This document shows, one piece after another, positions 1,322 to 47,000 of a DNA stretch of 64,000 nucleotides. The stretch spans positions 558,001 to 622,000 of the forward strand of contig JAWHQI010000327.1 of the NCBI GenBank assembly GCA_033032865.1. The letters run 5' to 3'. The notes beneath the pieces were generated by a model. It did no database searches. It had not been told where the DNA came from and saw only the letters and a list, made by a program, of their open reading frames with translations. The stretch comes from Dactylorhiza incarnata (taxonomy: Eukaryota > Streptophyta > Magnoliopsida > Asparagales > Orchidaceae). Numbering within the stretch: position 1 is the stretch's first letter; each line of letters starts with the position of its first letter. The position numbers and the translations under genes were made by a program.

Positions 1322-1424
1322 ATAATCATATAATATATTATTATATTTTTTTATTTTTTTTAATTAAAAAAAACAAAAAAAATCCTATAAATACCCCCCT
1401 CCCCTCTCTCTTTTCTCACACCCC

Positions 1425-1428
<4 letters not shown>

Positions 1429-1464
<36 letters not shown>
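1429..1464. repeat. (CT)18 microsatellite in the transposase 5' UTR
   Basis: An uninterrupted CT dinucleotide run lies between the TATA box and the transposase ATG at 1476. Pyrimidine stretches in plant 5' leaders are common and often promote transcription start; here it also marks a likely polymorphic site. Confidence 0.9.
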
Positions 1465-1466
<2 letters not shown>

Positions 1467-1475
1467 GCTCTTCCA

Positions 1476-3349
1476 ATGGCGTCATCTTCCACAACTCCAG
1501 CGTCGTCTTCTCAAAGTACGGCTTCGGTGGTGGAGCACAACCGTAGAGCGGGTATTTGGGAGCATTTCGACATGGTCCTAGTCGGCACCGAAAGGAAAGC
1601 GCGCTGCAAGATGTGCTCGAAGTTGCTATCCATCAGCGGCAACTCGACGCTCGTTAGACACCAAAAATCTTGCGAGTCGAAACAAGCTCCTCTCGAGTCA
1701 AGTCAAGCTCAAATTTCTGGAGCAGGACAGATTTGGACGTACGATCAAATGCGACAGCGAGAGATGCAGGCGAAGTTCGTCATCAAACGTGGGCTGCCAT
1801 TCAGCATCTTCGACAATGACGACGGCACAGAGTACATACATGGGGGGCTTCAGCCCAAATACCAAAAGGTTTGTAGAATTACTTTAAGGCGCGACACGAT
1901 TAGGTTATATTTAGAAGCAAAACAAGAATTAATTACGTATTTTGAAAATTTCGAAAGACGTGTGAGTCTAACGAGCGACGTTTGGACGAGTAATTTAAAT
2001 TTAGGATTAACTTATCTTTGCATCACTTGTCATTGGATTGATCCCATTTCGTGGGAGCTAAATAAACGCATAATATGTTTTACGGGTTTTGAATTCCCGC
2101 ACACGGTTATAGCTTTATATAAGGTTATTATGAAATGTGCGCGGGAATTTAAAATTAACGATAAAATACTTAGTTTTTCTCTTGATAACGCCTCCAATAA
2201 TTGCTTCGCAATTGAATTGTTAAAACGAGATTTAAAACCATTTCTCAACGGCGCATTTTTTCATACTAGATGTGTTTGTCACGTCCTAAATTTAGTGGTA
2301 CAGGATAGTTTAAAGGCAATATCACAATATATTAATAAAATTCGCGACATGTTAAAAGCTATTTATTGTACTAAACAACGAACTCAAGATTTTAGAAAAT
2401 TTTGTAAAGCACAAAATCAGAAATATTTGAAACCACAATTAGATATGCCTATTAGATGGAACTCAACCTATAAAATGTTAAAAAGAGCCCTTCTACAAAA
2501 AGATCTTCTAATGGAATATTATAGTTTACTTAATATTGAACACGGTTTAGGTGAAACTGATTGGACCATAATAGAATATTATGTAGATTTACTAAAGTGT
2601 TTTTATAGGGCCACCGTTGCTTTATCTGGAGTGTATTATCCAACGAGCGCATTAGTAATTGAACATTTCGTACATATCACAGAAAGATTTAGTTATTATA
2701 GAAAACACCAAGGTTTAAATCCGCTACTTAACGTAGTAGGCGTAGAAAATTTGATCGACGAAATCAATACTAATCTAACCTTAAATATAAATTATGATAA
2801 AGATGACCCCGTTAGTAGTACAAGTTTTACTAATTTTTTTACGCAAAGTTATAATTACTACAATAACTTATACGGATCACGACCCCACGAAGAAATAATG
2901 CAACCCAAAACGAAGGATGGTCTTAAAAATAAAATTTTAGATTTAGCTTCTATGAAAAAAAGCGCACATCTGGTAGTTTAGATGAATTAGGATTATACAC
3001 AAAAACTCAATTTAGCGATTTTATGAGTTCGGACGAGATCGAAAACTTCGATCTCTTAAATTGGTGGAAAGGTAAAGCTAATACCTATCCTGTTTTGGCC
3101 TGTATGGCCCGTGACTTATTAACTGTCCAAGCTAGTACAGTAGCTTCGGAGTCCGCTTTTTCTCTTAGTGGCAGGGTTTTGAACGAGCGGAGGAGCCGGC
3201 TTAACGAAGATTCGCTAGAGGTTTGCATATGCTACAAGGACTACTTGGACAGTTTAAAGAGGAAGCAACACATAACAGCATTGGAGGATAGCTCAGAGGA
3301 GATAGAAGACGAAATGGACGCGTTGAACTTGAATTTACAGGATGATTAA
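1476..3349 (+). pseudogene. hAT transposase (BED zinc finger, RNase H-like core, hATC), frameshifted
   Basis: The first frame runs 1476-2981 (501 codons). It has a BED finger at about residues 26-66 (WEHFDMV, CKMC, HQKSC), a first catalytic Asp in LTSDVW, a second in SLDNASNN, the CxxH-type RCVCHVLNL and the RWNSTYK motif. The C-terminal dimerisation domain (hATC: FDLLNWW, SESAFSLSGR) is in another frame, 3023-3349. The break is at the A7 run 2955-2961: with one more A the frame continues as SGSLDELGLY into the hATC domain with no other stop. The total length of about 620 residues is normal for RICESLEEPER-type transposases. This copy cannot make a full protein unless ribosomes slip at the A run. 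Confidence 0.9.
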
Positions 3350-4803: not shown

Positions 4804-5272
4804 ATAACTGTTGGGCGTGACCCGCCATCCGGGTTGTTGGATGGGGCAGCCCGGACGCACCATGGTTGGCTCCTGACATTTGTGCAGGGGAACTTCAATG
4901 GTATAGTTTAGTGCAAGGGAGCCGGGTTGGTTCTGGGCATGAGTACATGGGAGTTTCGGGCACGGTTTAGTGCGAGGGAGTTATGAGAACAATTTGACTA
5001 GTCCTGCTTGATAATAATAAAGGAGTTGGTAGTGAATTTCCTAACACTCCAGAGTTTTGGGATAGTTGGTAGGCGCTACTCCCTAATAGTGGTATCAGAG
5101 GCGGGGAGGGTCATGGGTTCGATCCCCCTGGATGGCGTTCCAGGGGGGAGTTTGTTGGGTGTGGCCCGCCATCCAGGTTGTTGGATGGGGCAGCTCGGGT
5201 GCATCATGGTTGGCTCCTGGCATAGGTGCAGGGGAACTCCAAGGGTACGATTTAGTGCAAGGGAGCCGAGTT

Positions 5273-5746
5273 TGTTAGAAATAATAATTATGTGGGTCAT
5301 ATATGTTAATTATGCGCGTTAATGGGGTTGTCATTAACATCGACCCAATTTAAGTGATCTAATTAATTTGGTCGATTACGTTTCATATTGTATGGACGGT
5401 TTAAGTAATGTGTGGATACCGGGTGTTATTTACATTTATATGATGGGCTTAAATGTAAATGACCGTATTAAGGTTCAGTTATAAATAGGTTATGGTCCCC
5501 GGGTCACAAGATATCATCATTATTATTTTTACTCTCATTAGTTCTAGCATCCCATCGCTGGAGAGAGCCTAAGGAGGAAGAGGAGGAGTCGTCTTCTTCG
5601 TCAGGACCTTGTAGACTTGGAAGATCCGTAACCGCAATAATCCATCTACATGGATTCAGGTATGCTTCCGCTCATGTTTTCTCCGTCTCGATGTTTCGAC
5701 TAGAGCGAATCCATCTCCGTCATGGTTTCACGGATTCTCCCTAACA
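5273..5746 (+). repeat. 5' LTR of the copia element
   Basis: 474 bp, TGTTAG...CTAACA. It contains CTATTTATAACTG-type promoter sequence in inverted copies and an ATGGATTCAG/GTATGC motif (5650-5664) that is conserved in all three LTR copies of the locus and looks like a start codon followed by a splice donor. Confidence 0.93.
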
Positions 5747-7537: not shown

Positions 7538-8327
7538 CTCATAACTCCGTTACAACGATTTCTGCCAACATTAATTCAATTCCGATGCTTAATGGAACTA
7601 ATTTTAAAGACTGGAAAGAAAGCATCATGATCGTGCTCGGTTGTATGGACTTAGATCTTGCGCTTAGGACTGAATCTCCCACACTTCCTTTAGATGATAG
7701 TTCCGCTGAGGTTAACGGAATTATGAAAGGTGGGAGCGTTCAGATCGCATGTGTCTAATGATCATGAAGCGGGGCGTTCCAGAAGCCTTTAGGGGCACTG
7801 ATGACGACACCCCTGCCTTAGAATTCCTTGATACCCTTGAAAAACGTTTTGCACAAAACGATAAGGCGGAGACAAGCACGCTTCTTGCGAAACTTGTTTC
7901 CATGAGGTACAAGGGTAAAGGGAATGTACGTGAGTACATTATGGAATTATCCCTACTTGCTTCAAAACTAAAAGCACTAAAGTTAGAGTTGTCGGAAGAC
8001 CTGCTCGTGCATTTAATTTTGATTTCTCTTCCTGCACAATTCAGTCAATTCAAGGTCAGTTATAACTGCCAAAAGGAGAAATGGTCTCTTAATGAGCTCA
8101 TTTCATATTGTGTGCAAGAGGAGGATAGATTGAAGCAAGAAAGGACGGAAAGTGCTCATATGACAGTGGGTCCCTCTAACAAAGGCCAGAAAAGGAAGAA
8201 AGGAAAGCAAGCTGCAAGTGGACCTCCACAAAGGAAGCCACAAAAGGAACATGATAAAGGTTCCACCTGTTTCTTTTGTCGGGGTGGTGGATATGTGAAG
8301 AAAGACTGTGCCAAATACCACGCCTGA
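7538..8327 (+). pseudogene. Copia gag
   Basis: The N-terminal frame (from 7540) contains LNGTNFKDWKESI, then shifts by one base near 7722-7728 into the frame 7749-8327, which holds the UBN2/gag core (LEFLDTLEKRFAQNDKAET, SLPAQFSQF, CVQEEDRLKQE) and a zinc knuckle CFFCRGGGYVKKDC, where Tyr replaces the expected His. The frame ends at TGA in place of a Trp codon (KYHA-W). Gag forms the virus-like particle. Two inactivating lesions and the altered knuckle mark this as a dead copy. Confidence 0.85.
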
Positions 8328-9327
8328 CGTGCTAAGAAGGGTACACTTCTCACATTAGTTTGTTCTGAAATTAATTTAACTTCTGTACCTAAACACACTT
8401 GGTGGATAGATTCTGGTGCTACTACTCACATAAGTGTGTCTATGCAGGGTTGCCTGAGCTGCCGAAAGCCAAGTGATGGTGAAAGATACATCTTTGTGGG
8501 CGATGGCAAATCAGTTGAAGTTGAAGTTATAGGCACTTTTCGTTTATTATTAGAGACTGGTCATTATCTAGATTTGTTTGAGACTTTTATTGTACCGTCT
8601 TTTAGACGTAATTTGATTTCTATTTCTATATTGGACAAATTTGGTTACCATTGTTCTTTTGGAAATAATAAATTTAGTCTCAATTGAATTCAAATCTTAT
8701 TGGCACTGGTTATTTATCTAATAATGATAACTTATATTTGCTTAATACAATAGCTTTATATAATGAAACAATGCATGTTAATTCAAGAGGTACTAAACGT
8801 AAATTAATTGATCATAATTCTGCCTCTTTATGGCACAAGCGCTTAGGGCACATCTCCAAACAGAGAATTGAGAGACTTGTGTCAGACGGAATTCTTGATT
8901 CCCTTGATTTTACAGACTTTAAGATTTGCATAGACTGTATAAAAGGGAAACAAACGAACATAAGGAAGATAGGTGCCAGTAGAGCTACGGAAGTCTTAGA
9001 ACTGATACACACTGATATTTGTGGACCTTTCCCTACGGCCTCTTGGAATGGTCAACAATATTATATCACGTTCATAGATGATTACTCTCGTTATGGATAC
9101 ATCTATCTTATTCATGAGAAGTCACAGTCACTGGACGTATTTAAAGCCTATAAAGCTGAGGTGGAAAACCAACTCGGCAAACGGATTAAAGCGGTCAGAT
9201 CTGATCGTGGTGGTGAATACTACGGTAGATATGACGGATCAGGAGAACAACGTCCAGGCCCTTTTGCTAAATTCCTAGAGGAGTGCGGTGTTGTCCCTCA
9301 ATACACCATGCCTGGTACCCCTACCAT
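8328..9327 (+). pseudogene. Copia protease and N-terminal integrase, truncated
   Basis: After the gag stop the same frame continues with the protease motif WWIDSGATTHIS (about 8400-8435) and runs to 8687, shifts by one base, and resumes at 8684-9327. The integrase zinc-binding segment HKRLGHISKQRI...CIDCIKGKQ is intact, as are the first two catalytic Asp contexts (HTDICGPF, RSDRGGEY). The frame reaches PQYTMPGTP and then stops matching at 9328, exactly where the inverted duplication begins; the catalytic Glu and everything up to reverse transcriptase are lost. Confidence 0.85.
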
Positions 9328-9752
9328 GAAAAGTAAAATGCATTTTTGCATCGAGATTTGGGCTGACCATGTTGCATGATAGGAGTGGTCCTGGATATTT
9401 TCTCTCCTCCGAACTGAATAGCCTCCCTCCCTAGCAACATCATGTCTTAGAATGAATAAAAAAATGTTATTTATGGGCCAATATGGTACTTTCAATAGTA
9501 TAATAATAATAATAATAATAAACATTTGAGTATGGTTCATATGTTAGACCGCATTATTAAGTAGCTAAGTTCTAATATGTGTTATTGTTAGGGAGTGACG
9601 ACTATCAACTATATCTCAAAATCTCGGAGTGTTGAGAAAGGCGTTACCAACTCCTTTATTATTATCAAGCAGGACCGGTCAATTTGTTATCATGGCTCCC
9701 TCGCACTAAATCGTGCACGAAACTCTCATGTACTCATGCCCGAAGCCAACTC

Positions 9753-10226
9753 TGTTGGGGAGAATCCGTGAAACCATGACGGAGATGGATTCGCTCTAGT
9801 CGAAACTTCGAGACGGAGAAAACATGAGCGGAAGCATACCTGAATCCATGTAGATGGATTATTGCGGTTATGGATCTTCCAAGTCTACAAGGTCCTAACG
9901 AAGAAGACGACTCCTCCTCTTCCTCCTTAGGCTCTCTCCAGCGATGGGATGCTAGAACTAATGAGAGTAAAAATAATAATGATGATACCTTGTGACCCGG
10001 GGACCATAACTTATTTATAACTGAACCTTAATACGGTCATTTACATTTAAGCCCATCATATAAATGTAAATAACACCCGGTATCCACACATTACTTAAAC
10101 CGTCCATACAATATGAAACGTAATCGACCAAATTAATTAGATCACTTAAATTGGGTCGATGTTAATGACAACCCCATTAACGCGCATAATTAACATATAT
10201 GGCCCACATAATTATTATTTCTAACA
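9753..10226 (-). repeat. Inverted copy of the copia 3' LTR
   Basis: 474 bp, matching 12877-13350 in reverse. It shares the variants specific to the 3' LTR (CCCCAACA terminus, GGCCATATATG, AAGGTATC) rather than those of the 5' LTR, so it derives from the 3' LTR. At one site (AAATGACCGTA) it keeps the 5' LTR state, showing that the 3' LTR mutated after duplication. Confidence 0.92.
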
Positions 10227-10624
10227 ATCTCCCACTTGGGCCAACATATGTTAAATTTATAACTGCGCATTATATGGTAACCTTATGAGCTCAAAAATTG
10301 CTGTCATTTCCGAAAACGTTTCTATCCAATCTGGTCCATGATTGTACTAACATAGGATCAAAGAGATCTTTGCTACTATAATCGTAGATAGACCCATCAA
10401 TGGTCACATATGTGTGCACAATCAATGACATAGATCAAGTATGGATGTGTGGCATGAAAATTATATGTAATGTGATCTTGAAATGTCTATTTTCAACTGG
10501 TCCTACTTTAACTTTAGTGAGATCAAAATAATTAAGTTCAGAGTGCAATAATGAATATTTTATTCTGCAGAATAATAATCATAAAATGTCATACAACAAA
10601 TAAGCATCAAAATACAAACTCCCA

Positions 10625-11385
10625 CTAACACAGCATATCCTCTAATAGAATGACACCCATATGAGCAGTGTGCTCGTGAAAGACCTTTGGTGTCAAACCC
10701 TTAGTAAGTGGATCTGCTAACATGAAGTTTGTCCCAATATGCTCTATAGACATATGTCCACTCTGAACTCTCTCTTTAACAACCAGGAACTTAATCTCTA
10801 TGTGCTTAGATTTAGAGCTACTCCTGTTGTTATTGGAATACATCACTGCAGACTTATTGTCACAAAATAACTTGAGTGGTCTTTCAACACATCCAAAATG
10901 TGTAGTCCTGTGACAAAATTTTGCAGTCATATTCCATGATTGGATGCCTCATAACATGCTATGAATTCTGCCGCCATGGTCGAGGAAGCTATGAGTGTCT
11001 GCTTGGCACTTTTCCATGATATAGCTCCTCCAGCCAAAACATATACATAGCCTGAAGTGGATCTCATGCTGTCTTGACATCCAGCAAAGTCTGAATCAGA
11101 ATACCCAATGATCTCCAGCTGATCAGACCTTCTATAAGTGAGCATGAAAGCCTTTGTCCTTTTCAGGTATCGCATGACCCGTTTGGCTGCTTTCCAATGA
11201 TCCATTCCTGGATTACTCAGATATCTGCCTAACATTCCAACTATGAACGCAATATCCGGACGCATACATACTTGAGCATACATGAGACTTCCTACAGCCG
11301 ATGCATAAGGAAGATTTTGCATCTCTAATTCCTCAGCTTTAGTTTTGGGGCATTGATTGAGACAAAATTTGTCTCCCTTAGCCAC
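10625..11385 (-). pseudogene. Inverted duplicate of copia RNase H
   Basis: Two overlapping minus frames (10927-11385 and 10625-10930) encode the RNase H domain: SDSDFAGCQDS, TSGYVYVLAGGAISWKS, STMAAEF, FCDNKSAV and a C-terminal LADPLTKGL. Compared with the right-arm copy, this one keeps Gly in ASAVGSLMYAQ but has a Trp-to-stop change and a one-base loss after ASNHGI. The two arms have decayed independently. Confidence 0.85.
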
Positions 11386-11421
11386 AGGGGTATCTCCTGG
11401 CTTACAATTCTGAATTCTGCC

Positions 11422-11680
11422 GCCATGCTAAGGTTTTCTTCGAGACTGGTAATGCTCGGTTCTTTGAAGATGTTGAGTTTGGAGGGGAAGATATGGTTAG
11501 AGACTTTGTCTTTGAAGAGGAATTTATTTCTCTTCCTACAGTTGTTACTGACAATACTCAGGATTTCATTCCTGATGATATCGCTCCAGTAACAAATCCG
11601 GATCAAGACATTATTGAAGAGCTTCCTCATACAGTTCCAAATGAACAAACTCACCAACCTCAAAGCCTTTGTCCTTTTTA
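11422..11680 (+). pseudogene. Pol linker fragment forming the inverted-repeat spacer
   Basis: The plus-strand frame from 11424 encodes ARFFEDVEFGGED...VRDFVFEEE, the conserved segment between copia integrase and reverse transcriptase, in the orientation of the parent element, ending at 11680. It is flanked on each side by GAATTCTGCC/GGCAGAATTC. The left junction sequence GAATTCTGCCGCCATG is also present at 10962-10977 in the RNase H copy, suggesting template switching at microhomology. Confidence 0.8.
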
Positions 11681-11692
11681 GGCAGAATTCAG

Positions 11693-12478
11693 GATTGTAA
11701 GCCAAGAGATACCCCTGTGGCTAAGGGAGACAAATTTTGTCTCAATCAATGCCCCAAAACTAAAGCTGAGGAATTAGAGATGCAAAATCTTCCTTATGCA
11801 TCGGCTGTATGAAGTCTCATGTATGCTCAAGTATGTACGCGTCCGGATATTGCGTTCATAGTTGGAATGTTAGGCAGATATCTGAGTAATCCAGGAATGG
11901 ATCATTGGAAAGCAGCCAAACGGGTCATGCGATACCTGAAAAGGACAAAGGCTTTCATGCTCACTTATAGAAGGTCTGATCAGCTGGAGATCATTGGGTA
12001 TTCTGATTCAGACTTTGCTGGATGTCAAGACAGCAGGAGATCCACTTCAGGCTATGTATATGTTTTGGCTGGAGGAGCTATATCATGGAAAAGTGCCAAG
12101 CAGACACTCATAGCTTCCTCGACCATGGCGGCAGAATTCATAGCATGTTATGAGGCATCCAATCATGGAATATGGCTGCAAAATTTTGTCACAGGACTAC
12201 GCATTTTGGATGGTGTTGAAAGACCACTCAAGTTATTTTGTGACAATAAGTCTGCAGTGATGTATTCCAATAACAACAGGAGTAGCTTTAAATCTAAGCA
12301 CATAGAGATTAAGTTCCTGGTTGTTAAAGAGAGAGTTCAGAGTGGACATATGTCTATAGAGCATATTGGGACAAACTTCATGTTAGCAGATCCACTTACT
12401 AAGGGTTTGACACCAAAGGTCTTTCACGAGCACACTGCTCATATGGGCGTCATTCTATTAGAGGATATGCTGTGTTAG
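11693..12478 (+). pseudogene. Copia RNase H (native orientation)
   Basis: The frame begins DCKPRDTPVAKGDKFCLNQ and runs to 12478 with one TGA (Gly-to-stop) at about 11811. From 11819 it is open for 219 codons: RPDIAFIVGML, SDSDFAGC, STMAAEFIACYEA, FCDNKSAVMYSNN, LVVKERVQSG, LADPLTKGL. It cleaves the RNA strand of the cDNA hybrid in an active element. Without reverse transcriptase it is non-functional here. Confidence 0.88.
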
Positions 12479-12876
12479 TGGGAGTTTGTATTTTGATGCT
12501 TATTTGTTGTATGACATTTTATGATTATTATTCTGCAGAATAAAATATTCATTATTGCACTCTGAACTTAATTATTTTGATCTCACTAAAGTTAAAGTAG
12601 GACCAGTTGAAAATAGACATGTCAAGATCACATTACATGTAATTTTCATGCCACACATCCATACTTGATCTATGTCATTGATTGTGCACGCATATGTGAC
12701 CATTGATGGGTCTATCTACGATTATAGTAGCAAAGATCTCTTTGATCCTATGTTAGTACAATCATGGACCAGATTGGATAGAAACGTTTTCGGAAATGAC
12801 AGCAATTTTTGAGCTCATAAGGTTACCATATAATGCGCAGTTATAAATTTAACATATGTTGGCCCAAGTGGGAGAT

Positions 12877-13350
12877 TGTTAGAAATAATAATTATGTGGG
12901 CCATATATGTTAATTATGCGCGTTAATGGGGTTGTCATTAACATCGACCCAATTTAAGTGATCTAATTAATTTGGTCGATTACGTTTCATATTGTATGGA
13001 CGGTTTAAGTAATGTGTGGATACCGGGTGTTATTTACATTTATATGATGGGCTTAAATGTAAATGACTGTATTAAGGTTCAGTTATAAATAGGTTATGGT
13101 CCCCGGGTCACAAGGTATCATCATTATTTTTTTTACTCTCATTAGTTCTAGCATCCCATCGCTGGAGAGAGCCTAAGGAGGAAGAGGAGGAGTCGTCTTC
13201 TTCGTCAGGACCTTGTAGACTTGGAAGATCCGTAACCGCAATAATCCATCTACATGGATTCAGGTATGCTTCCGCTCATGTTTTCTCCGTCTCGATGTTT
13301 CGACTAGAGCGAATCCATCTCCGTCATGGTTTCACGGATTCTCCCCAACA
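12877..13350 (+). repeat. 3' LTR of the copia element
   Basis: 474 bp, TGTTAG...CCCCAACA, preceded by the polypurine tract and followed by target duplication GAGTT. Confidence 0.93.
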
Positions 13351-13771
13351 GAGTTGGCTTCGGGCATGAGTACATGAGAGTTTCGTGCACGATTTAGTGT
13401 GAGGGAGCCATGATAACAAATTGACCGGTCCTGCTTGATAATAATAAAGGAGTTGGTAACGCCTTTCTCAACACTCCGAGATTTTGAGATATAGTTGATA
13501 GTCGTCACTCCCTAACAATAACACATATTAGAACTTAGATACTTAACTTAATAATGCGGTCTAACATATGAACCATACTCAAATGTTTATTATTATTATA
13601 CTATTGAAAGTACCATATTGGCCCATAAATAACATTTTTTTATTCATTCTAAGACATGATGTTGCTAGGGAGGGAGGCTATTCAGTTCGGAGGAGAGAAA
13701 ATATCCAGGACCACTCCTATCATGCAACATGGTCAGCCCAAATCTCGATGCAAAAATGCATTTTACTTTTC

Positions 13772-16546
13772 CTGAATCTGACGAGTCCTATTAAAACCCG
13801 AACTTAGATTTGTAAACGGAGCTCAGAACCAAAAACACCTCGCGTTGCTGACCTTTTATGTATGGAGAATATCAAAGCAACATAATATAATATGTTATAA
13901 AAAAGAACATAACATGTACATTGTTGAAGCTATCATAATCTACCGCAAAGTAAGACGAGCTATAATTAATATGTGTCAATAGTACTTGCGAATTATTTTC
14001 AAAGACGTGTATTTTATGAAATCAATCTAATACCCCAAATCAAACTGTTTTTTAAATTGTCTTATGGGTTGACCACACATACAGACAAAAATGTTGAAGT
14101 TAAGACAAACAAAATCATTTATGCGAAAAAACTCAAATCGTCAGTCATTTAACAAATATTATCATTTTTAGCAATAAAAAAATTATTTGAATACAATATT
14201 AGCAAAACAAGTGACCTAATAATCAAAGTTGGTTTGTAGTGCTAGTTAGCTTATTTGAAAATAACAACACAAAATATTATATATTATGTGAGTAAGCACA
14301 CACGAATTTGCATATACATTTAGAGATAAAAATTACAAAGAAAATTATAAAGTGAGAACTAGATGACTAGAAGATTTGGCTCATAATATTTGGATGATCC
14401 CAAATAAGAGAACTATTGTCATTTTATAGGCCTCAAGTTTTTTTTTACTTTTCTTACATCTATGTACAAGACTATTTGATCATCTACAAGGTTCTAGACT
14501 ATTTTACACAACTCTACAAACTTCTATAATTTTGAATAATCATAGATACGCTATATAATTCTGATCTATCTAGAACTTTTTAGAAGACTACAAAGCTCAC
14601 TTGAAATTTTTAGAATTCTCCATCATATTTGAAGCACTTCCATACTATTTTATAATAATCTAGAGTACTCTAGAAAAATACATTTCTAGAAAATTTCAAG
14701 CATTATAGACATTAGCTAATATGAGTTTTTTTCATCGCAATACATCATTCTTCTCCCTGATTCAAAGTATATTGATCAATTATCCATATCCATATGTACA
14801 GTCTTCAACACAAATTAGGTTAAAAAAAGTTCGAAATTAATTAATGCAACAATCATCGTGAAAGCATTTGTCCTTGGTGTCAAACATAGATAGCTTGATC
14901 ACTTTCTTCTTTGATGGTGGGGGTATCACATGTGGGGAAATGTGATCAAGTAGTGTTGACAATGGTATATTATATTATAGTTATCTACATTTTCTACAAC
15001 TCGAAAGACTTGAAAGATGTGTTACTCGTGTATTTCTGCCTTTTACTTCTTTTTTGGCCCACCAACTTCTGTTGTTGACTTGTCTTCAACAACACTATCT
15101 GTTGGATCAGTGCGATTCTATGGCTTATGTTGTTGTAGTGATCGAATGAGGCTTTAATACTCACTTGTAAGACTCTGGTTTCTGGAAAATTAGACCAAAC
15201 TGGAAAATCTTATGTCAAATGCATCCATCTTGACTATGAGAGCATATATATTGTAAGAGTGAATAACACCCCTCATAACTCTGAGTACATAATCAATATG
15301 GATGCAATATAAGGCTAGTTAACATCATTTCACATTTCATTCATCGCGGAAGAATAAATATGCAGCGAAAATCGACATCAACATGAAACAAAGTAAGAGC
15401 ATGACACAACGAATCACAGAGTTCTACAAAAGCAAAGTGCAAAAAGAAAGGCTCAAAGATCCCACAACACAGAGTACATACATAAGTCTAAGTCTATATT
15501 TGATGCCTACAAGTAGAGTCATACCCGGATGAAACATAAATAAGTAAAAAACAACAATTATAGCCTCACATCTACATCCAGGCTGCCTGTAGTGGCAACA
15601 TCCTAGCCAGAAAATATCTACAAGCTCACCCTGCTGCAGCTGATGGTAGGGCTACTCATCATGGTGATAAAAAAAAGTTAGTCTAACAAGACTGATTGAC
15701 TCTCGCCCTCCCCATAAGTCCCTAAATGCTCAAGAAATGGCGGAGTCTAAAACTGCTTACAATAATTGAATATGCATGAGTGTTAGTACAACACTAGCCC
15801 AACTGTAATTAAAGTAAGAGAATAGTACTAACTAATAAACTCAGAGTAAAGCATAGTATCGGATAGTAATATTCCACTAGAGATTATATACATTCATAAT
15901 CATATCATGCATACAAGAGTTCAATGTGTCACACATGACCTTAAGCGTATATTCCAAGCTTATAGGTTCAGCTCCACACATGATTGCCCAATTGAGTCAA
16001 CCTTGGTGTCCGACCATAAGTCAACATAGGTCCAAGTGTCCAATATGTACACTCTAGCTCAAGTGACAAGACTAATAAAAGGAATGTTTCACTTGCCGTA
16101 GCTTTTCTCTCTGTTTTTCTGCCATCAACATCATCCTTCTTTTTTATTCAGTGTGAAGATCCTTATTCTGGGCTTCCCAAATGATTTGAGAATCGGACGT
16201 AGTTTCAATAAAAAGATCGCAGCATAAAAACCACAGTATAAAGAACATAAAACACCAGATTTTTTATTTATTGACAATGGTGTTACAGAAATTTATGCGT
16301 ATTAATTAACCATACACATTACAATATGCACAATCATAATCGATACAAGAGGCTTTATGACGCTCCTGAGCTTCTTCGATTCCTATAAAAATCTTTAACC
16401 ATATCTTTGTCAGCTCTCCAGGGGGAATCCTCTTTGGTGCGCAGGGAGAAGCTCCTGTTTTCTAAAAAAATATGTCCACGATTAGTTAGTCATAAAAATA
16501 TGACTAGGCGAGAAAAATATTTCGTGAAACAGTTATACATGCAAGC
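13772..16546. other. Intergenic, no gene recognised
   Basis: AT-rich sequence without an ORF of note on either strand. A CTAGA/TCTAGAA-rich stretch (about 14480-14700) and unclassified repeat-like DNA (15330-16300) are present, but I could not assign any to a family. Confidence 0.5.
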
Positions 16547-22805: not shown

Positions 22806-23113
22806 AAAGGCACCGTGGTTTTGGCTAGTCGCAATGCAATTTCTACGAGTTATTACGTGTCTTTTAAAAATACGTCTTTACATGCATTTTTATGAAAAGT
22901 GTTCAACACGAAAGTTGTAGATCTCACCGAGATCTACAACTTGTGTGTTGAACACTTTTCCTAAAAATGCACGCACAAGCCGTATTATCGCCCTGATTGA
23001 AACATGAGCGTAACTATAGCGAATTTTTGGAAATACGCCTTGTACAAGTGTATTTTCAAAAAATGCGTATTAACTCGGAAATTGCGGTGCGACTAGCCAA
23101 AACTGCGGTGCCT
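22806..23113. mobile_element. 308-bp foldback MITE with nested hairpin
   Basis: Termini AAAGGCACCGTGGTTTTGGC and, reversed, AGGCACCGCAGTTTTGGC continue pairing for about 50 bp (GGCTAGTCGCA...). A TTA lies just outside each end (22803-22805 and 23114-23116), compatible with a PIF/Harbinger-type target duplication. The centre is a second hairpin: 22895-22959 pairs GTGTTCAACACG..GTTGTAGATCTC with its reverse complement around ACCGA. No coding capacity. Confidence 0.7.
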
Positions 23114-25215: not shown

Positions 25216-25374
25216 AGCTCCGATTGGGGGGACTTATTTTCACCGGTCAAGCGGTTACGACCGCATGAACCAGACCTTGGACTTATTTTCACCGGTCAAG
25301 CGGTTACGATTAAGGTCCGGTTCATGCAGTCGTAACCGCTTGACCGGTGAAAATAAGTCCCCCCAAACGAAGCC
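25216..25374. mobile_element. 159-bp Tourist-like foldback MITE
   Basis: The arms pair over about 60 bp: AGCTCCGATTGGGGGGACTT on the left against GGCTTCGTTTGGGGGGACTT on the reversed right. TTA sits directly outside both ends (25213-25215, 25375-25377), the PIF/Harbinger signature. The loop holds a third partial copy of the arm (GGACTTATTTTCACCGGTCA, from 25279), so one arm was duplicated in direct orientation. Confidence 0.75.
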
Positions 25375-32000: not shown

Positions 32001-35000
32001 GCTCCGCCATCCGGGCAATGAATACCAAGTCACGAGACCCCACTAAGTCCTCGAGCAGAGTGTTGTCGTAGACCAGGTCGTGATACTGGGCTCCTCCCCT
32101 GCAGGCTGACTACTTGCCCCCTCGAGTGGGTTCTAAGTCCTCGAGCAGAGTGTTGCCGTAGATCAGGTCGTAGCACTGGGCTCCTCCCCTGCAGGCTGGC
32201 TACTTGCCCCCTCGAGTGAGTTCCAAGTCCTCGAGCAGAGTGTTGCCGTAGATCAGGCCGTGGCACTGGGCTCCTCCCCTGCAGGTTGGCTACTTGCCCC
32301 CTCGAGTGAGTTCCAAGTCCTCGAGCAGAGTGTTGTCGTAGATCAGGCCGTGGCACTGGGCTCCTCCCCTGCAGGCTGACTACTTGCCCCCTCGAGTGAG
32401 TTCCAAGTCCTCGAGCAGAGTGTTGCCGTAGATCAGGTCGTGGCACTGGGCTCCTCCCCTGCAGGCTGACTACTTGCCCCCTCGAGTGAGTTATAAGTCC
32501 TTGAGAAGAGTGTTGTCGTAGACCAGGCCGTGGCACTGGGCTCCTCCCCTGCAGGCTGACTACTTGCCCCCTCGATTGAGTTCCAAGTCCTCGAGCAGAG
32601 TGTTGCCGTAGATCAGGACGTGGCACTGGGCTCCTCCCCTGCAGGCTGACTACTTGCCCCCTTGAGTGAGTTCTAAGTCCTCGAGCAGAGTGTTGTCGTA
32701 GACCAGGTCGAGGCACTGGGCTCCTCCCCTGCAGGCTGGCTACTCGCCCCCTCGAGTGAGTTTCGTGCCCTATAGTGCTCCAAAAGCATGTTACGACCTC
32801 AGGAGAAGATGAAAAGGTGGGCGAGGTGAATACCATCAACATCCCGACAAAGCGAGCCCGACACAGCCGCTATCTCGTCGCCTCGCATGACGTCCCAGTG
32901 CGAGTACGGGAGCACTCAGCAACGTGAATCTTACGCCAACCCCTTCACGTCAGTGGCAAGAGAGGGGGGCCGAGGCGCTAGATCTACAAAAGAACCCTCC
33001 TGTACGAATCACAGTAAGGGGCGAGTACATCCTAAGGGCGAGTATAGAAAATGCGTGTGCATGAAAATTAATCCAAGTGATGAACAACATAACCAAAGAA
33101 TAGAATAAGGCGAAATATATCTATGCAAATACGAGGAGAAGGGCGAGTACACCCTAAACAAACATGCAGAGAGAAGTTTATTATTACAGATCAAAAAACT
33201 TTAAACATCCGGGCCCCCTTCTTCTGACCCGCTGGAGGAGCCCTCATCTTGGGCCTCGGTAGGAGCAGGATTCACCACCTCGCGGTATAGCTCGGGAAGA
33301 AGGGTGGCGAGATCGACCTGAGCCCCATCGGCAGTAAGCATGAAGCGGCGCCGGAGACGCTCCCGCACGAACACCGCGGTCGCGATCGCCAGCTTCCGGC
33401 GCGTCTCAGCAACTTGAGCGAGGGTGAATTGGAGGAGGGTTGGCGCGTTCGACGACTCCCCCCGGCTTGGGTGGCGAAGTTCCTCTATTTCAAACTCGGC
33501 TTCGGCAAGGCGATTACCGAGGTAATCGGACTGACGTTGCGAGGCGACGAGCTGCTCCTCCAGTTCGGATATCCGCGTCACTAGCGCCACCGCGGCTTCC
33601 TGAGAAATAAGACATTAGCTAACTTCAAGTTAGGCAAGAAGGACGGAGACGAACCAGGCTGAATACCTCGGGAGGAGGAACCTCCTTGGCCTGGAGCTCG
33701 ACTATCTCCCTGTCTTTCTCAATCATCTTCTCCTCCAACTCCGCGTGGGCGGCGCCCAAGTCGCGGAGCCGCCTGTTCGACTGAATCCCCCGCCACGCGG
33801 TCTGGTGAATCAGCTCGGCTGTCCGGAGGGCGGAGCGACAACTAAGGTTGGCCAACTCGCGGATAGGAACCTCCGCGTCATCTCGCCCGTACAGCCCAAA
33901 GATCAGGTTAAACGCATGATCGCCGACCTCCTCGAAGTCCTCCCAGGAGGGGAGGAGCGAACTCATTGAAATCCGGTTCGACTCGTGATCCCATATCATG
34001 AGGGGGACGGCCCGGGAATCCTTACTTCGCATTCCCAGCCCGTAATGCGGGTGAGTAGAAGGGTCGGGAGGCGGACTCGCCGGAAGCCCCCTGTCCTCCG
34101 CTTTTTTGGCCTCGGCTCGCTTGCCGAGGCGACTTCGGGATTTGCCCGTTCCTTGCCCTTGTCCGACGGCGAGGCCGGCTCGCTGTCCACTGTGACCACC
34201 ACCCCTGCAAGGGACCCCTCCCGGGAAGGCTCACTTGACCGTTGCCGAGAAGCCTCATGAGGGGGTAGGAGGGGGACGACACGCTCTCCTGCATTTAAAC
34301 ACGAGGCAGTTAGTAACCACCCCCACTAGGAACAGATAATCAACATCGCGAGGCGAGTAAGATTTAACCGCTCCCGGGTTAACGAAGGCGAGTTGATCCA
34401 CGCCCTGTCGCAGGAAGACGACGTCCAAGACCTTGTTCTTCAAAGAACAGTAGAGTTCGAGCGCGTCCCCCTTCAGGCGAGGCGGTCGGTACTCTACCTC
34501 CGTCTTCTGGATGGGAGCAAAGGGAATGTTACCGTAGTCGCCTCGCACCAGGACGAATTTGTCGGTCCAATGGTGGACCTTGTTGAAGGTCTCGGCGACC
34601 TTGACGCACACGCTAGTGAAAAATAAGGTGCCGTCGCTGGTCGCCTTCAGGGTCATCACTTTGCGGAAGGCGGAGAGGTTGAACTCTATCTTCTCCCCGC
34701 GGAGGTAGCAGGCATAAGCGACCAGAACGCTGATTGCGTTGGGGTTGGCCTGTGCGGGGATCGTCCCGAAGTACCGGAAGACTTGACGAACTTTAGGCCA
34801 CAAAGGCAGCCTCAACCCCACCTGGAAGTGGGCCAAGGGTATGGCAAGCTCTCCACTATAGAGCGAGTTGAGAAACTCGCCCGGCCCTGGCCGCCTCGCG
34901 GTATAGCCCGGAGGCAAGTATCGCTTCTCGACATCTGCTAACTCTTCGCCGAGGGTCTGCGAGCTGGGAAAGTTGTGCGCCCGGAAATTACGGACGCAGA

Positions 35001-41000: not shown

Positions 41001-44000
41001 GAAGAGAAAACCCCTAGGGTTCTAGTTTCATCATACTTCCAAGATAGTGCAAATGAGAGATACACATGCTTATATAGTGCCTAATTCTAAAGTACGCAAG
41101 GGAAAACAGTAAATAACTCACTGCCCGAAATACACGTGCGGTAATAAAAGAAAATGTTGATGGTTGCGCTGCACCTGTGCACACTACTAGCGAACGCTCA
41201 TCGTCGACTTGGAATCCGTGTCCACGTCGCCTTGGTCCCGACGTCGACTTGCGTCATGTCCTCGCCTTCTCGTCCCTTGCCCTTTTCCATCTTCGTTATA
41301 GCATGTTAGATCATAAGACTCTCTACATCATATTTGGTAGTATAGTTTAAAGACTCTTTGAATGCAAATATGATTCATTAAATTTGGGTATGATAATGAT
41401 AAATCAATGATTTGGACTGTTTGGCTGCAGATTGAAAATTTTGAAATCCTATTTGTAATGAAAGCTATATGATGTCAGACAAACTTTATCTTTACTGCAT
41501 TAACTATAAACTTGCTGCCAAGATCAAGCTATTGCATTCATGATTAATGCTTAGATGAAAGACATGCCATGTAGTTAGGATATATGACAACCTATCAGTA
41601 GGAAAATCAGCTTTTCTCAAGTTCAAAGTCTGACCTCTAAAAAATGTGAATATTGGAGATATACCTTGGTTCTTATTTGATGCAGCAGATCATCCATCTC
41701 TTCAACTCCTTTACCAGTAGCAACTTGACTCTTTGATTCTTCACATGGTTTCAACTTGTGCTGAATGTCCTTCAGGGAGAATTAAACCGCTTGTCAAAAG
41801 AGGAGAAAGCAAAAGGAGGAAAAAGAAGGCAAAATCATTATTTTTTAATGAGCAGTTATCTCGCAAGTTAACGATTGAAACACTGTTTTAAGTTTCTAAA
41901 AACATTTTATATAGAACAAATCATCGGTATTATGCACTGACTATAAATCAAATCCTGATATCACCGTAAGCCGCGGATAGTTTAACATGTTCATAGTGCC
42001 ATCATGCTCATATACTTTCTTAGGCAAAAAAAGACTGAAACTAACCATGTCCCTGATTTGATGAAGCAAATGTTGGCTTCTGTCAAGTTCAAAAGGATTT
42101 GAAGAAAGATTTGTCAGCAGGAGGCTATCCATCTTCTGGTTATCTTGCTGCGAGGATGGATTAAAGTTGGTGGAAAAGAAATCAAATATGACAGTTACCA
42201 TAAATTACAGGATCAAGAAATAAAAGCAAAGCATGTCATCAGATTGAGTAGATACCATTTTCTTGCACTGACCATCTTCCCCAAGGGGTGGTGGCCTTCG
42301 AATAATGTTTTCATTTTCGGCAGGGCCACATAGATTTTGATTCAGAGGGCCTTCAAAACGGTTAACCAGTTGAGAAACATTAGAATAGTTATCTTGTGAT
42401 ATTTCATATGAAGGCCTCAGCAATCTCCAATGTATTGGTGGAAGAGGTGGTGGTGGTGGCAGTTCAGTTGGTATTAGAGTTGCAGCATTCTTGGGACTAC
42501 TTGACATGGAATCATATTTTACATGATTTATTAATGATTCCAAAGAGGGGATACTGGAAATATAACCACCATACTGAAAAGGAACTGTATCATTCCCAGT
42601 ACAAATATCCTTCAATCTGATTTCTTGACCCACATGGTTTATCTGTTCCAATCCACCGTTGCTAGAAATAGATGCTGCTAATGACGAAATTCTTCGTAAA
42701 TCATCCGGCACTTCATTTATTTTACTTACGGAGCATTCATCTGGTTCCCAGATGTCGGAATTTGAATCTGACCGAGGACTGGGTAGATCCTCAGTTGAAT
42801 ATGGATAAGATCTACCGAAAGTGTCATCATCTGATTCAGAACCACCATCTTGTGCAGGAAGAGTGCATCCTGGAAACAACTGGAATGAAGAAAACACATG
42901 TCCATCTATTTCTCGGCTTATACAGCCATCATGTACTCCTACTTTCAGATTAGATTCCCCTTGACCATTCATGGGATAGAATGATATCTTCATATGTTCT
43001 AATGGTGGGGAAGAATTCCCAGAGTGGCGAAAACCGGAATAAATAGACTTCTCCAACACTCCATAATTAGCCTTATTTATGAAACTCTGTTCATCTAAAG
43101 TTCGTGCTGCAAGTTTCTGCTCATAGAATGTTTGTGATGCAACTCCATTCAAACTTTTTTGGTGAACATCAATAAGAGGTTTTCCCTTTGATCGACTATC
43201 ATTATCATTCTGTTCATATCCGCTCACACTTCTAGTATGAGTAACTGATGGTTTTATTTGAAGACCCTCTACATCATTTCTTCGAGTTGGTCCAGGAAAA
43301 CTGGGAGATAAACTCTTTCTATTGTGCAAAGAATCCATGAATGGTGAAGAAACATTAGATGTACTGTACTGTTCAATTTCCATACTACAAGCAGCACTTG
43401 CTGTTTGATGTACTTGACAAATGCGAGCAGTTAATACATTGGGGGATGCACCTTGACTTTCTTCATGCTGACTGAATGTAATGGCTTCAGATTGTTCCTG
43501 AGAATTCTGCTTAGCGCAAAAGCCAACATATTGACAATCGAGCTGTGTTGGGTGTTCCACGGAATTATGTCCTTCAACAACATCTTTCCTACTCAAGAAC
43601 TGATTGTTGTTCAAAATTTTCTGATCCACTAAGCTTAAAGCTTCAGGGGGACCCTCTATGCTGCCAATTGAGTTCAATTGCGGTGATCTCTGGCCATGGG
43701 CCATATTTTCTTTATCTAATTTCATGCTAGTGTTCGAGCTATTAGATTCAGTCCTCTTACCCGCTGAACTTGGGGGACAAATATCTGGAGGTTTTGATGG
43801 TTGAAGTCCGAGAAGGTTGCCATTTGTCCATAATTTTATGGAAGAAATACTTGAAATACTGATCGGAGGCTTAGTTTCAATATTAGGTATTGTTTGTAAT
43901 TTCGCGTCATTAAACCAAGGATGTCGATCCTCATCAATTTCCTGAAAAGCGCTTGTTGTAGACATGCTAGCTTCCTGTGTCGACCGCTTAAGGTCTGGTG

Positions 44001-47000
44001 TCCTAGAAACATCCAAATAGATATCACTTTGCAATATGCACTTGTTCGAAGAATCGAGTGCTAGAGGAACCTCATTGCTAGAATAAGTATACTTTTTAGG
44101 CATCTTTGCAACTCCAGATCCATTTTTTTTATACTCCTTGTTGGAAAAAGTCTGGATGCATTTTGTTTGACACTCAAAATCTGCATCTGCCTCTGCTTCG
44201 AGCGTATTGAGGGCGTCAACGTAACTCTCCACCTCAGTAACTTCCTCAAATTGTTTTTTAACACAAGATGATTTGGGGAAATCTGCAATAATTGGTGAAA
44301 GTTCTGCGTGGTCCAAAGATCCATTTCTACCAGGTTCCTCTACTAAAAGCTTGGAATCTCGAAGAGTGTCATCAGAAAATTTAAGACCTGTAGCCTTCAT
44401 TAATTCAGATTTTTGATCCCATATAACAGAAGGTGTCTGTGAAATACTCTTCCTATGCATGAAATCATATTGGGAATCATCATCCACACCAAATACAGGT
44501 TCATTACTATGAAACTGAGAAGTAGCTTCATGATCCTGATTGATCTGTACATTAGAAACTGATAATCTATCATACTCCAAATCATTAGCCACAACTGAAG
44601 GGTTTGTCTGTGAAACTTGTTCAATACAATTCAACTTGTTCACAGTATTCAAAAGTTGGGGTTCACTCATAACTTCAGGTTTTAATCTCATTCCAGATGC
44701 CGAGGAGTTTTCTGCTGAAAAGCTTTGGTCATCATTACTAAGAGGTGCAAACCTTGCACTACCCGCTAAACTGGTTATTTCAAAGAATATTTGAACCATA
44801 GGGTCAAGTGAGAAGATAGGTATAATGAACACAAGGAAAAATATATACTGAAATTTAGATTTTTTAGGAGCTAGGATAAGAATGAAGATACCTGTTGAAT
44901 TGTGATGTAGATATTGGACTTTGAATTCCTCCATCTTTAACCTGTGAGTATTTTCTCTGGACAGTATATTAAGACTGACATAAGTGCTATCATGAATAGA
45001 AGTGCTATCATGAATAAGGATGCTATCATGAATAAGGATGCTTGGAATAAAATAACCCTGCTCTGATACCATGTGTAGGGAATTGGGAAAAAAACTTTTC
45101 TCATTGATCTTCTAAATGACCTTGTATAATTATAAATAATAAACAATATTTTAATTACTCTCAAATGCATGTGTTTGAGAAAGGTAATTGATCATGTTCA
45201 AAGAATTGCAAATATAAATAAACCAAAAGATGAATTTAAAATAAGAAATAAACTATATTGTTGTTAAAAATTCGGACAAACTCATCAGTGACATGGTGTG
45301 GTTACAATGAAGTGAGTCATCTTAAGCTAGACTCGTAAAAGATGGGTGTTACGCATACACTCTCATGCAAGTGGAACCCCCGGATGGAGATCGCCAACGT
45401 ACGCGTAGGGAAGCCACCGCAACTAATTGGGGCACGCGCATCGAAGCCTCCTTGATTATTCCTTTAACAATTAAATGTGTTAATTAATATTAATTAAATG
45501 CCTTTTAATTAATATTAATTAGACTATAGTATTATTAATTGTATTGTCTCATTTTGTGTGCCCTCCCTCATCTATATAAGAGGGAGGGGTTGGAGTTGTA
45601 AGGTATGCTTGAATGTATGCAAGTTTTTAGGGTTTCTCCCTAAGTTTCATCTTTATCCTTCCTCCTTTCGTCTCGCCTTCCACCGCCGGCCCTCCCCCTT
45701 GCCGGATTCTTCCTCTCTCTCCTTATCTATTCGGTAACAATGGTCCGACCTGCCGCTCCGCCCGCCTTAGCGCCGCCGGCTCAAGGCTCTCCCTCCATGG
45801 CTCCGAACACGCGTCCCCACGCTGCCGACATCCACGCCATGCTCGACCGCCACGATGTCCAGCTCGCCAGATTGCAGACCTCCGTCAACGCCGCCCTCGC
45901 CGGTCAAGCGCTCATTCTCCGCCGCCTCGACGCCCTCACGACCCCACAAGCACCCGCACCCTCAACAGGCACAACCTCTTCGACCCGCAGCGAGCAGCCC
46001 GGCTCATCGTCCCCGTCCTGCGTCGAGCAGCCAGCCCCGCAGCCCCCTTCCAGCGTCGAGCCACAGTTGCCGCCGCCACCGCACCTCCTGCGTCGAGCAG
46101 CAGCCCCAACCGCACCTCCCACACCGCTTCCGCCAACCTCTGCTCCAGCACCACCCCCGGCAGCCAGCTTCACGACAGATTCCGCCCACCGCAACTCCAA
46201 CTCCGACTCCGTCCGCCAGCTCCAGCCCGCGCCGATACCGGCCGCGGCACCAGACAGCCACGCCTACAGCGCAATCGTCCGCCAAATCCAGCACGCCCTC
46301 GTCTGTCGGTTTCTCTCCCGCGTGACTGTGTTTCCCCTCCTTGAGCCACACACCCTTTGTGTTCTTTTCTTTTCACTGGGAACCCGCACCGACCCCTCTC
46401 TCTCCCTCTCATTAGCTGTCACCCTCTCTCCTCTCCCCACATTTCAGTTCCCAATGCCTGCCACTTTCCCCACTACACGCCAGCCCCCACTTTTTCACAT
46501 CCTTTTTTCTTTATTCTCTCCGCATGTCCCATCTCTCTCCCTTTCATTAAATGTCACCTTCTCTCATCACCAACTTTATTTCTCCTCCATTATCTTGTCC
46601 TATCACTTTGTTTGTCCTTTCCTTCTATCTACACTTCCAAACAAAAACACACCAACATTTTTCACTCCTAGCTGTCGCCCCCCTGTCCACACCCATGCAG
46701 CACCCACTTTCACCCTCTATAGCCCACCCACTCTTGTTGTCCCTCTTTCTTCTAACCGCACACCTCTAATACATAAATATTCAGCCCAAATATTAATTTT
46801 TTTACAACCTCTTAATTCTTTCTCCTCGAGGCACACGCCACCGCCACTAGCAATGCACAACTCCTTTCTCGTCAACATCCTTAAAGATCCCGATAAAAGC
46901 ATAACACTCGACCTTGAGGACAAGGTCGATTTTCAAGAGCGGTATAGTGTTATGCATATACTCTCATGCAAGTGGAACCCCCGGATGGAGATCGCCAACG

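Follow-up and report, generated by a model that had tools for sequence, protein, structure and literature searches.

A nested copia retrotransposon of Dactylorhiza incarnata carries a 2.1-kb inverted duplication of its own 3' part, which is real in the assembled sequence and probably is the product of break repair with template switching, resulting in a fold-back locus that could give hairpin RNA if it is transcribed. The locus is part of a window of 64,000 nucleotides, i.e., the whole stretch of DNA that was analyzed (contig JAWHQI010000327.1, positions 558,001 to 622,000), and all coordinates given here refer to this window. The original prediction had called it a built-in source of hairpin RNA; the evidence fits better with a scar of DNA repair that may serve as such a source.

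Comparison of the window with itself by BLASTN revealed a single large inverted pair, a minus-strand match between positions 9325-11421 (arm 1) and 13774-11681 (arm 2) with 2,103 alignment columns, 98.29% identity, 15 gap columns, and a score of 3,631 bits. A chance origin was ruled out, because the best minus-strand self-match in 50 base shuffles of the 4.45 kb between 9325 and 13774 had a score of 31.9 bits. The pairing over the full length of the arms, which had been proposed for 9328-11421 and 11681-13771 around a spacer of 259 bp (11422-11680), is real, and the arms end at 9325 and 13774. An ungapped repeat finder recovered the pair in three pieces, each 99% complementary, because there are indels between the arms. 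Global alignment of the arms yielded 20 substitutions, 14 of them transitions, together with 15 gap columns. The substitutions are located in the RNase H region (nine), the stretch before the LTR (three), the LTR (six), the TRIM remnant (one), and the flank (one). The longest perfect run between the arms is 377 bp, and mismatch-free pairing is found for 1,577 of the 2,071 24-mers of arm 2; the complementarity is imperfect.

The arms belong to two nested elements, a copia element that sits inside the right LTR of a TRIM, and matching 5-bp duplications are found for both. Comparison of the ends revealed the target-site duplication ATAAC on both sides of the TRIM (4804-4808 and 13518-13522). Its LTRs of about 280 bp start at 4809 and 5153 and are separated by a non-coding interior of only about 65 bp, and these short LTRs, the very short interior, and the target duplication are the features of a TRIM. 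The left LTR (4809-5088, plus strand, right end approximate) is followed by the primer-binding-like site TGGTATCAGAG. The right LTR was cut by the copia insertion into a left part (5153-5272), identified by its ends and by a direct repeat (4809-4932/5153-5276, 86%), and a right part (13351-13517, 83% identical to 4926-5086), both on the plus strand. The copia target duplication GAGTT forms the last five bases of the left part (5268-5272) and is repeated at 13351-13355. The copia 5' LTR (5273-5746, plus strand) has 474 bp, TG...CA ends, and a TATA-like box TATAAATA at 5480, and it is followed by the primer-binding site TGGTATCAGAGC, which we take to be of the tRNA-iMet type. The 3' LTR (12877-13350, plus strand) is also 474 bp long and has its TATA-like box at 13084. 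The two TG...CA LTRs, the 5-bp target duplication, and the tRNA-type primer site identify the structure of an LTR retrotransposon of the copia type.

The coding part of this element is degraded. ORFs and Pfam matches for gag, a protease-linked domain, GAG-pre-integrase, and the integrase core (PF14223, PF22936, PF13976, and PF00665) extend from 7716 to 9327 on the plus strand and end where arm 1 starts, and the frames from gag to integrase are interrupted by one stop and one frame change. The reverse transcriptase family PF07727 had no match in any of the eight pieces scanned with Pfam, whereas homologues (e.g., P0002, P0005, and P0017) carry it upstream of the part that is matched by the arms. 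The reverse transcriptase has apparently been lost, an intact series of gag, protease, integrase, reverse transcriptase, and RNase H frames is not present, and the copia copy is a disabled derivative. The spacer is a piece of the linker between integrase and reverse transcriptase in native orientation (plus strand); seven of ten candidate homologues reached 1e-5, and six of these seven contain PF25597, presumably the SH3-like domain behind the copia integrase. Four of the eight pieces, among them those of RNase H, were not given a family name by Pfam, and the RNase H pieces were assigned through their homologues. The source name of many of these, "secreted RxLR effector protein 161-like," looks like a misannotation, and we took them as C-terminal parts of copia-type Pol because the same list contains retrovirus-related Pol of transposon TNT 1-94. 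Scans of the window for tRNAs and Rfam families yielded nothing, and a scan of the 5' LTR for promoters and terminators of the bacterial type was set aside as uninformative for a plant. Elsewhere in the window, an exon of a SCAR gene is located on the minus strand (42208-45111); its best match is a protein of Platanthera guangdongensis (760 of 857 residues, 89%), and four of the eight matching proteins reported come from named orchids.

The composition of the arms reveals which of them is the copy. Arm 2 (11681-13774, plus strand) contains, in this order, the connection between reverse transcriptase and RNase H, RNase H, the PPT, the 3' LTR, the TRIM LTR remnant, and the host flank, and it is continuous with both target duplications and, after 13774, with flank that was not duplicated. 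Arm 1 (9325-11421, minus strand) contains the same features inverted, i.e., host flank, TRIM LTR remnant, a complete antisense copia LTR (9753-10226, with its TATA-like box at 10012-10019 on the minus strand), the PPT region, and RNase H; it ends inside the integrase, and the copia element is interrupted at 9325. The predicted contents of the arms, namely, the RNase H region, a whole LTR, part of a TRIM LTR, and host flank, were thus found again, and the PPT can be added to them. The flank extends over 252 bp beyond the TRIM target duplication (13523-13774, BLASTN and global alignment of the arms), where 254 bp had been proposed. Neither of the nested target duplications has been disrupted, and between them arm 2 retains the original order of features; on this evidence arm 2 is the native arm and arm 1 an inverted copy that was added after the TRIM and copia insertions. 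The three LTRs vary at nine columns: three set the 5' LTR apart from both arm LTRs, four are private to arm 1, and two are private to arm 2. This is the expectation for a 3' LTR that was duplicated after integration and agrees with arm 1 as the copy. Per 474 positions, the 5' LTR differs from the LTR of arm 2 at five and from that of arm 1 at seven, and the two arm LTRs differ at six. The substitution rate of grasses is 1.3e-8 per site per year, and on this basis the copia insertion can be roughly dated to 0.4-0.6 million years ago and the duplication to about 0.4 million years ago.

Traces of the process that generated arm 1 are present at both ends of the spacer. An exact patch of 17 bp lies at each junction and matches RNase H sequence within both arms; the patch at the arm 1/spacer junction (11411-11427, plus strand) is identical to 10962-10978 (plus) and 12124-12140 (minus), and that at the spacer/arm 2 junction (11662-11678, plus strand) is identical to 11147-11163 (plus) and 11939-11955 (minus). 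The chance expectation for a 16-mer match in this 4.45 kb is about 2e-6. In Arabidopsis, templated insertions ("fillers") have been described as a hallmark of end joining mediated by polymerase theta (PMC10923293). Like the patches found here, fillers of plant break repair are short pieces that are copied from near the break in either orientation, but those that have been shown are short, whereas the inverted copy of 2.1 kb is far longer and needs extended copying (PMC10923293). Such patches from nearby sequence characterize both spacer junctions, while the outer junction near 9325 yielded no filler. A 12-bp piece is common to the two arms at their inner ends, and part of the junction may therefore predate the inversion. 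We infer that arm 1 results from the repair of a break, during which the template was switched repeatedly and one long stretch was copied in inverted orientation.

The sequence of events might have been as follows. The copia element would first have inserted into the TRIM. Later, a double-strand break within pol would have been repaired by error-prone template switching, and the downstream 2.1 kb with RNase H, 3' LTR, TRIM remnant, and flank would have been copied into the break in inverted orientation. The linker piece of 259 bp would have been kept or pasted in at the break, the two short patches would have been copied from RNase H, and the reverse transcriptase would have been lost. The process may have comprised one event or several, and its steps may have followed another order. 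Transcription from the element's own 5' LTR could then yield a hairpin RNA with a length of about 1.4 kb or more that comprises RNase H, PPT, and U3, and a Dicer-like enzyme could process it into siRNAs against the copia family.

In silico folding was used to characterize this putative RNA. For a transcript of 9325-13774, 2,078 of the 2,097 bases of arm 1 are predicted to pair with their counterpart, with a minimum free energy of -3,991.9 kcal/mol. However, the LTR of arm 2 is in sense orientation, and an ordinary LTR-to-LTR transcript is therefore expected to stop inside it. When the sequence was cut at 13122, the predicted start of R in the 3' LTR under the assumption that transcription starts about 38 bp after the start of the TATA-like box, 1,435 of the 2,097 bases of arm 1 remained paired (9981-11421, -2,936.5 kcal/mol). 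Neither the 5' nor the 3' copia LTR contains a canonical AATAAA, so that the 3' end of the predicted transcript is uncertain and this end is a guess; AATAAT is found twice in each of the two LTRs. The normal transcript of the element is expected to form a duplex of about 1.44 kb with RNase H, PPT, and U3 and without TRIM or flank, which would become double-stranded only where transcription passes the 3' LTR. The proposal that ordinary read-through yields a long double-stranded RNA is supported as far as the 5' LTR, the inverted arms and the spacer in one transcriptional direction, and the predicted fold are concerned, but the ordinary transcript would give only about 1.44 kb. The same applies to the content of the duplex: RNase H and the U3 of the LTR can be expected, while the TRIM would depend on transcription beyond the 3' LTR.

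Both arms have been mutated since the duplication, about as much as the copia LTRs differ from one another. Substitutions in RNase H were polarized against 120 homologues, which was possible for six of the nine, three per arm, and not for the other three. For RNase H and LTR together, seven of the twelve polarized changes are located in arm 1 and five in arm 2. The RNase H frame has a separate disabling change in each arm, and it therefore seems that it was still open at the time of duplication. Both arms decay and their divergence is without a sign of constraint, and selection for keeping the arms paired is unsupported; however, a silencing locus of this age need not necessarily display such selection.

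The locus is structurally a good candidate for a silencing locus like Mu killer (Muk) of maize, apparently born as a repair scar. It could be an active silencer, which is transcribed at present and the hairpin siRNAs of which silence the copia family in trans, and with read-through the TRIM family as well, although we consider this unlikely. Most plant LTR elements are silenced, and the arms diverge as if unconstrained, with their LTRs differing at six of 474 positions compared to five and seven differences to the 5' LTR. In favor of activity, the 5' LTR has both a TATA-like box and a primer site, and the U3 promoter region remains in the predicted duplex even if the transcript is cut at R. 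The geometry and the scale are as in Muk, where part of MuDR is duplicated and inverted and the transcript forms a perfect 2.4-kb hairpin, from which 26-nt siRNAs are generated (PMC2563033). The Muk-like architecture that had been predicted is borne out in structural terms, by an inverted transposon part of kilobase scale with near-complete complementarity (2,103 columns, 98.3%) and by the predicted fold. As described for Muk, part of a transposon derivative was duplicated and inverted with kilobase-long arms, and Muk likewise arose once, when one copy of the family that it could silence was rearranged (PMC2563033). In contrast, Muk is derived from a DNA transposon, and its transcript, siRNAs, and heritable silencing have been demonstrated, whereas the candidate orchid locus is a copia element nested in a TRIM and would have its own LTR as promoter.

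Antisense nested copies of the Arabidopsis copia element EVD have been proposed as triggers of the same kind, i.e., as a source of LTR hairpins or of convergent double-stranded RNA (PMC11624286). In both cases a single locus combines LTRs in sense and antisense orientation, at a distance of 1.9-2.6 kb for EVD (PMC11624286), but EVD involves the nested insertion of a second element, and the orchid locus a local inverted duplication that took the TRIM and host flank with it. In maize pollen, 28 hairpin siRNA loci have been defined, including Tpd1, which targets a pollen lipase gene; these loci resemble the present one in their long hairpin precursors, one of which has 4,480 bp, and they are expressed, with siRNAs that are mostly 22-nt and strand-biased (PMC11390486). 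Because of this strand bias, siRNAs from both strands would not be a fair test for a hairpin. In a survey of maize, small RNAs have also been linked with miRNA-like structures in the LTRs of copia elements (PMC10760457). As far as shown, the shape that the locus shares with Muk, EVD, and the maize hairpin loci is a likeness in structure only. Among the open-licence papers listed in literature searches, none appeared to report a hairpin that arose from an inverted duplication within an LTR retrotransposon.

Double-stranded RNA might also originate from convergent transcription instead of a hairpin. The LTR of arm 1 is complete (474 bp) and lies on the minus strand; it retains the TATA-like core TATAAATA and could drive transcription leftward into integrase and gag, against the transcript from the 5' LTR. 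It is therefore an equally good candidate source of double-stranded RNA, and the same alternative has been raised for nested EVD (PMC11624286). Hairpin and convergent sources are not mutually exclusive, and convergent transcription in place of a hairpin seems rather improbable. Combining both sources, it is a quite speculative idea that this copia copy is an off switch of its own family, a young element that was turned by one repair error into an LTR-driven hairpin with U3 promoter, RNase H, and TRIM LTR. Upon escape of the 5' LTR, it would generate U3 siRNAs against itself and its relatives, and with read-through against TRIMs, and the antisense RNA from the inverted LTR would add double-stranded RNA of gag and integrase.

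An alternative to a repair scar is a false inverted repeat, generated during assembly from chimeric or palindromic long reads or from two haplotypes that were joined head to head. The divergence of the arms, about 1%, is below the heterozygosity of 1.8-1.89% that has been reported for Platanthera, the nearest named relative, two species of which were assembled from PacBio subreads with Canu correction and Flye (PMC9023349). However, a palindrome due to a missed adapter has one symmetric turn, whereas the turn found here consists of 259 bp from the element itself, in native orientation, and the two 17-bp patches. In addition, the outer end of the arm meets the integrase at a defined point, no reverse transcriptase was detected in the pieces scanned, and the arms bear private mutations, including different stops. 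Given a spacer in native orientation, the patches, the mutations private to each arm, and a reverse transcriptase that is apparently lost, an artefact from palindromic reads is unlikely, and an assembly origin as a whole has little probability. Template switching of reverse transcriptase can produce complex rearrangements, but a strand-transfer error during reverse transcription, before integration, is hardly conceivable as the origin of the inverted copy and was ruled out, because the TRIM remnant and the host flank of 252 bp that are found in arm 1 are not part of the element and are not expected in its cDNA.

It is unsettled how silencing starts for new families of plant LTR retrotransposons, and one trigger that has been proposed is a rearranged copy that gives rise to a hairpin. 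A repair scar of the kind described here is a datable and anatomically clear example of how break repair may give birth to a potential hairpin copy. The locus predicts siRNAs with arm-private variants, an edge at the R region of the 3' LTR, and U3 siRNAs. Even if it is silent, it represents a clean plant case of a kilobase-long inverted duplication with templated patches.

The window contains a second palindrome at 56331-56691, which has no spacer and which, in a BLASTN comparison of the window with itself, matched itself at 97.8% over 362 aligned columns. A GGTTCAAACCCC-like box, resembling tRNA-derived elements, is present in each of its arms, and therefore the palindrome may be either two SINE-like units arranged head to head or an element of the fold-back type. 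The same self-comparison also revealed three short palindromes of MITE-like size (1180-1314, 22869-22986, and 25217-25373), with self-complementarity in the range of 81-86%.

Reading frames of a hAT-type transposase are found at 1368-3349. Their C-terminal part, at 2933-3346, has a match to PF05699, the hAT dimerisation family, and overlaps a long upstream frame, the two being in different phases. Just downstream of a retrotransposon's long pol frame, a 90-bp unit is repeated eight times in tandem (32045-32762, 93% matching). The sole clear host gene among the window genes examined is a SCAR gene, with an exon on the minus strand at 42205-45111 that has 89% identity to a Platanthera guangdongensis protein.

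Homologues of the copia RNase H region (11813-12475) often carry the name "secreted RxLR effector protein 161-like" in publicly available annotations of plants. For these relatives of the copia RNase H, this designation is apparently a propagated misname.
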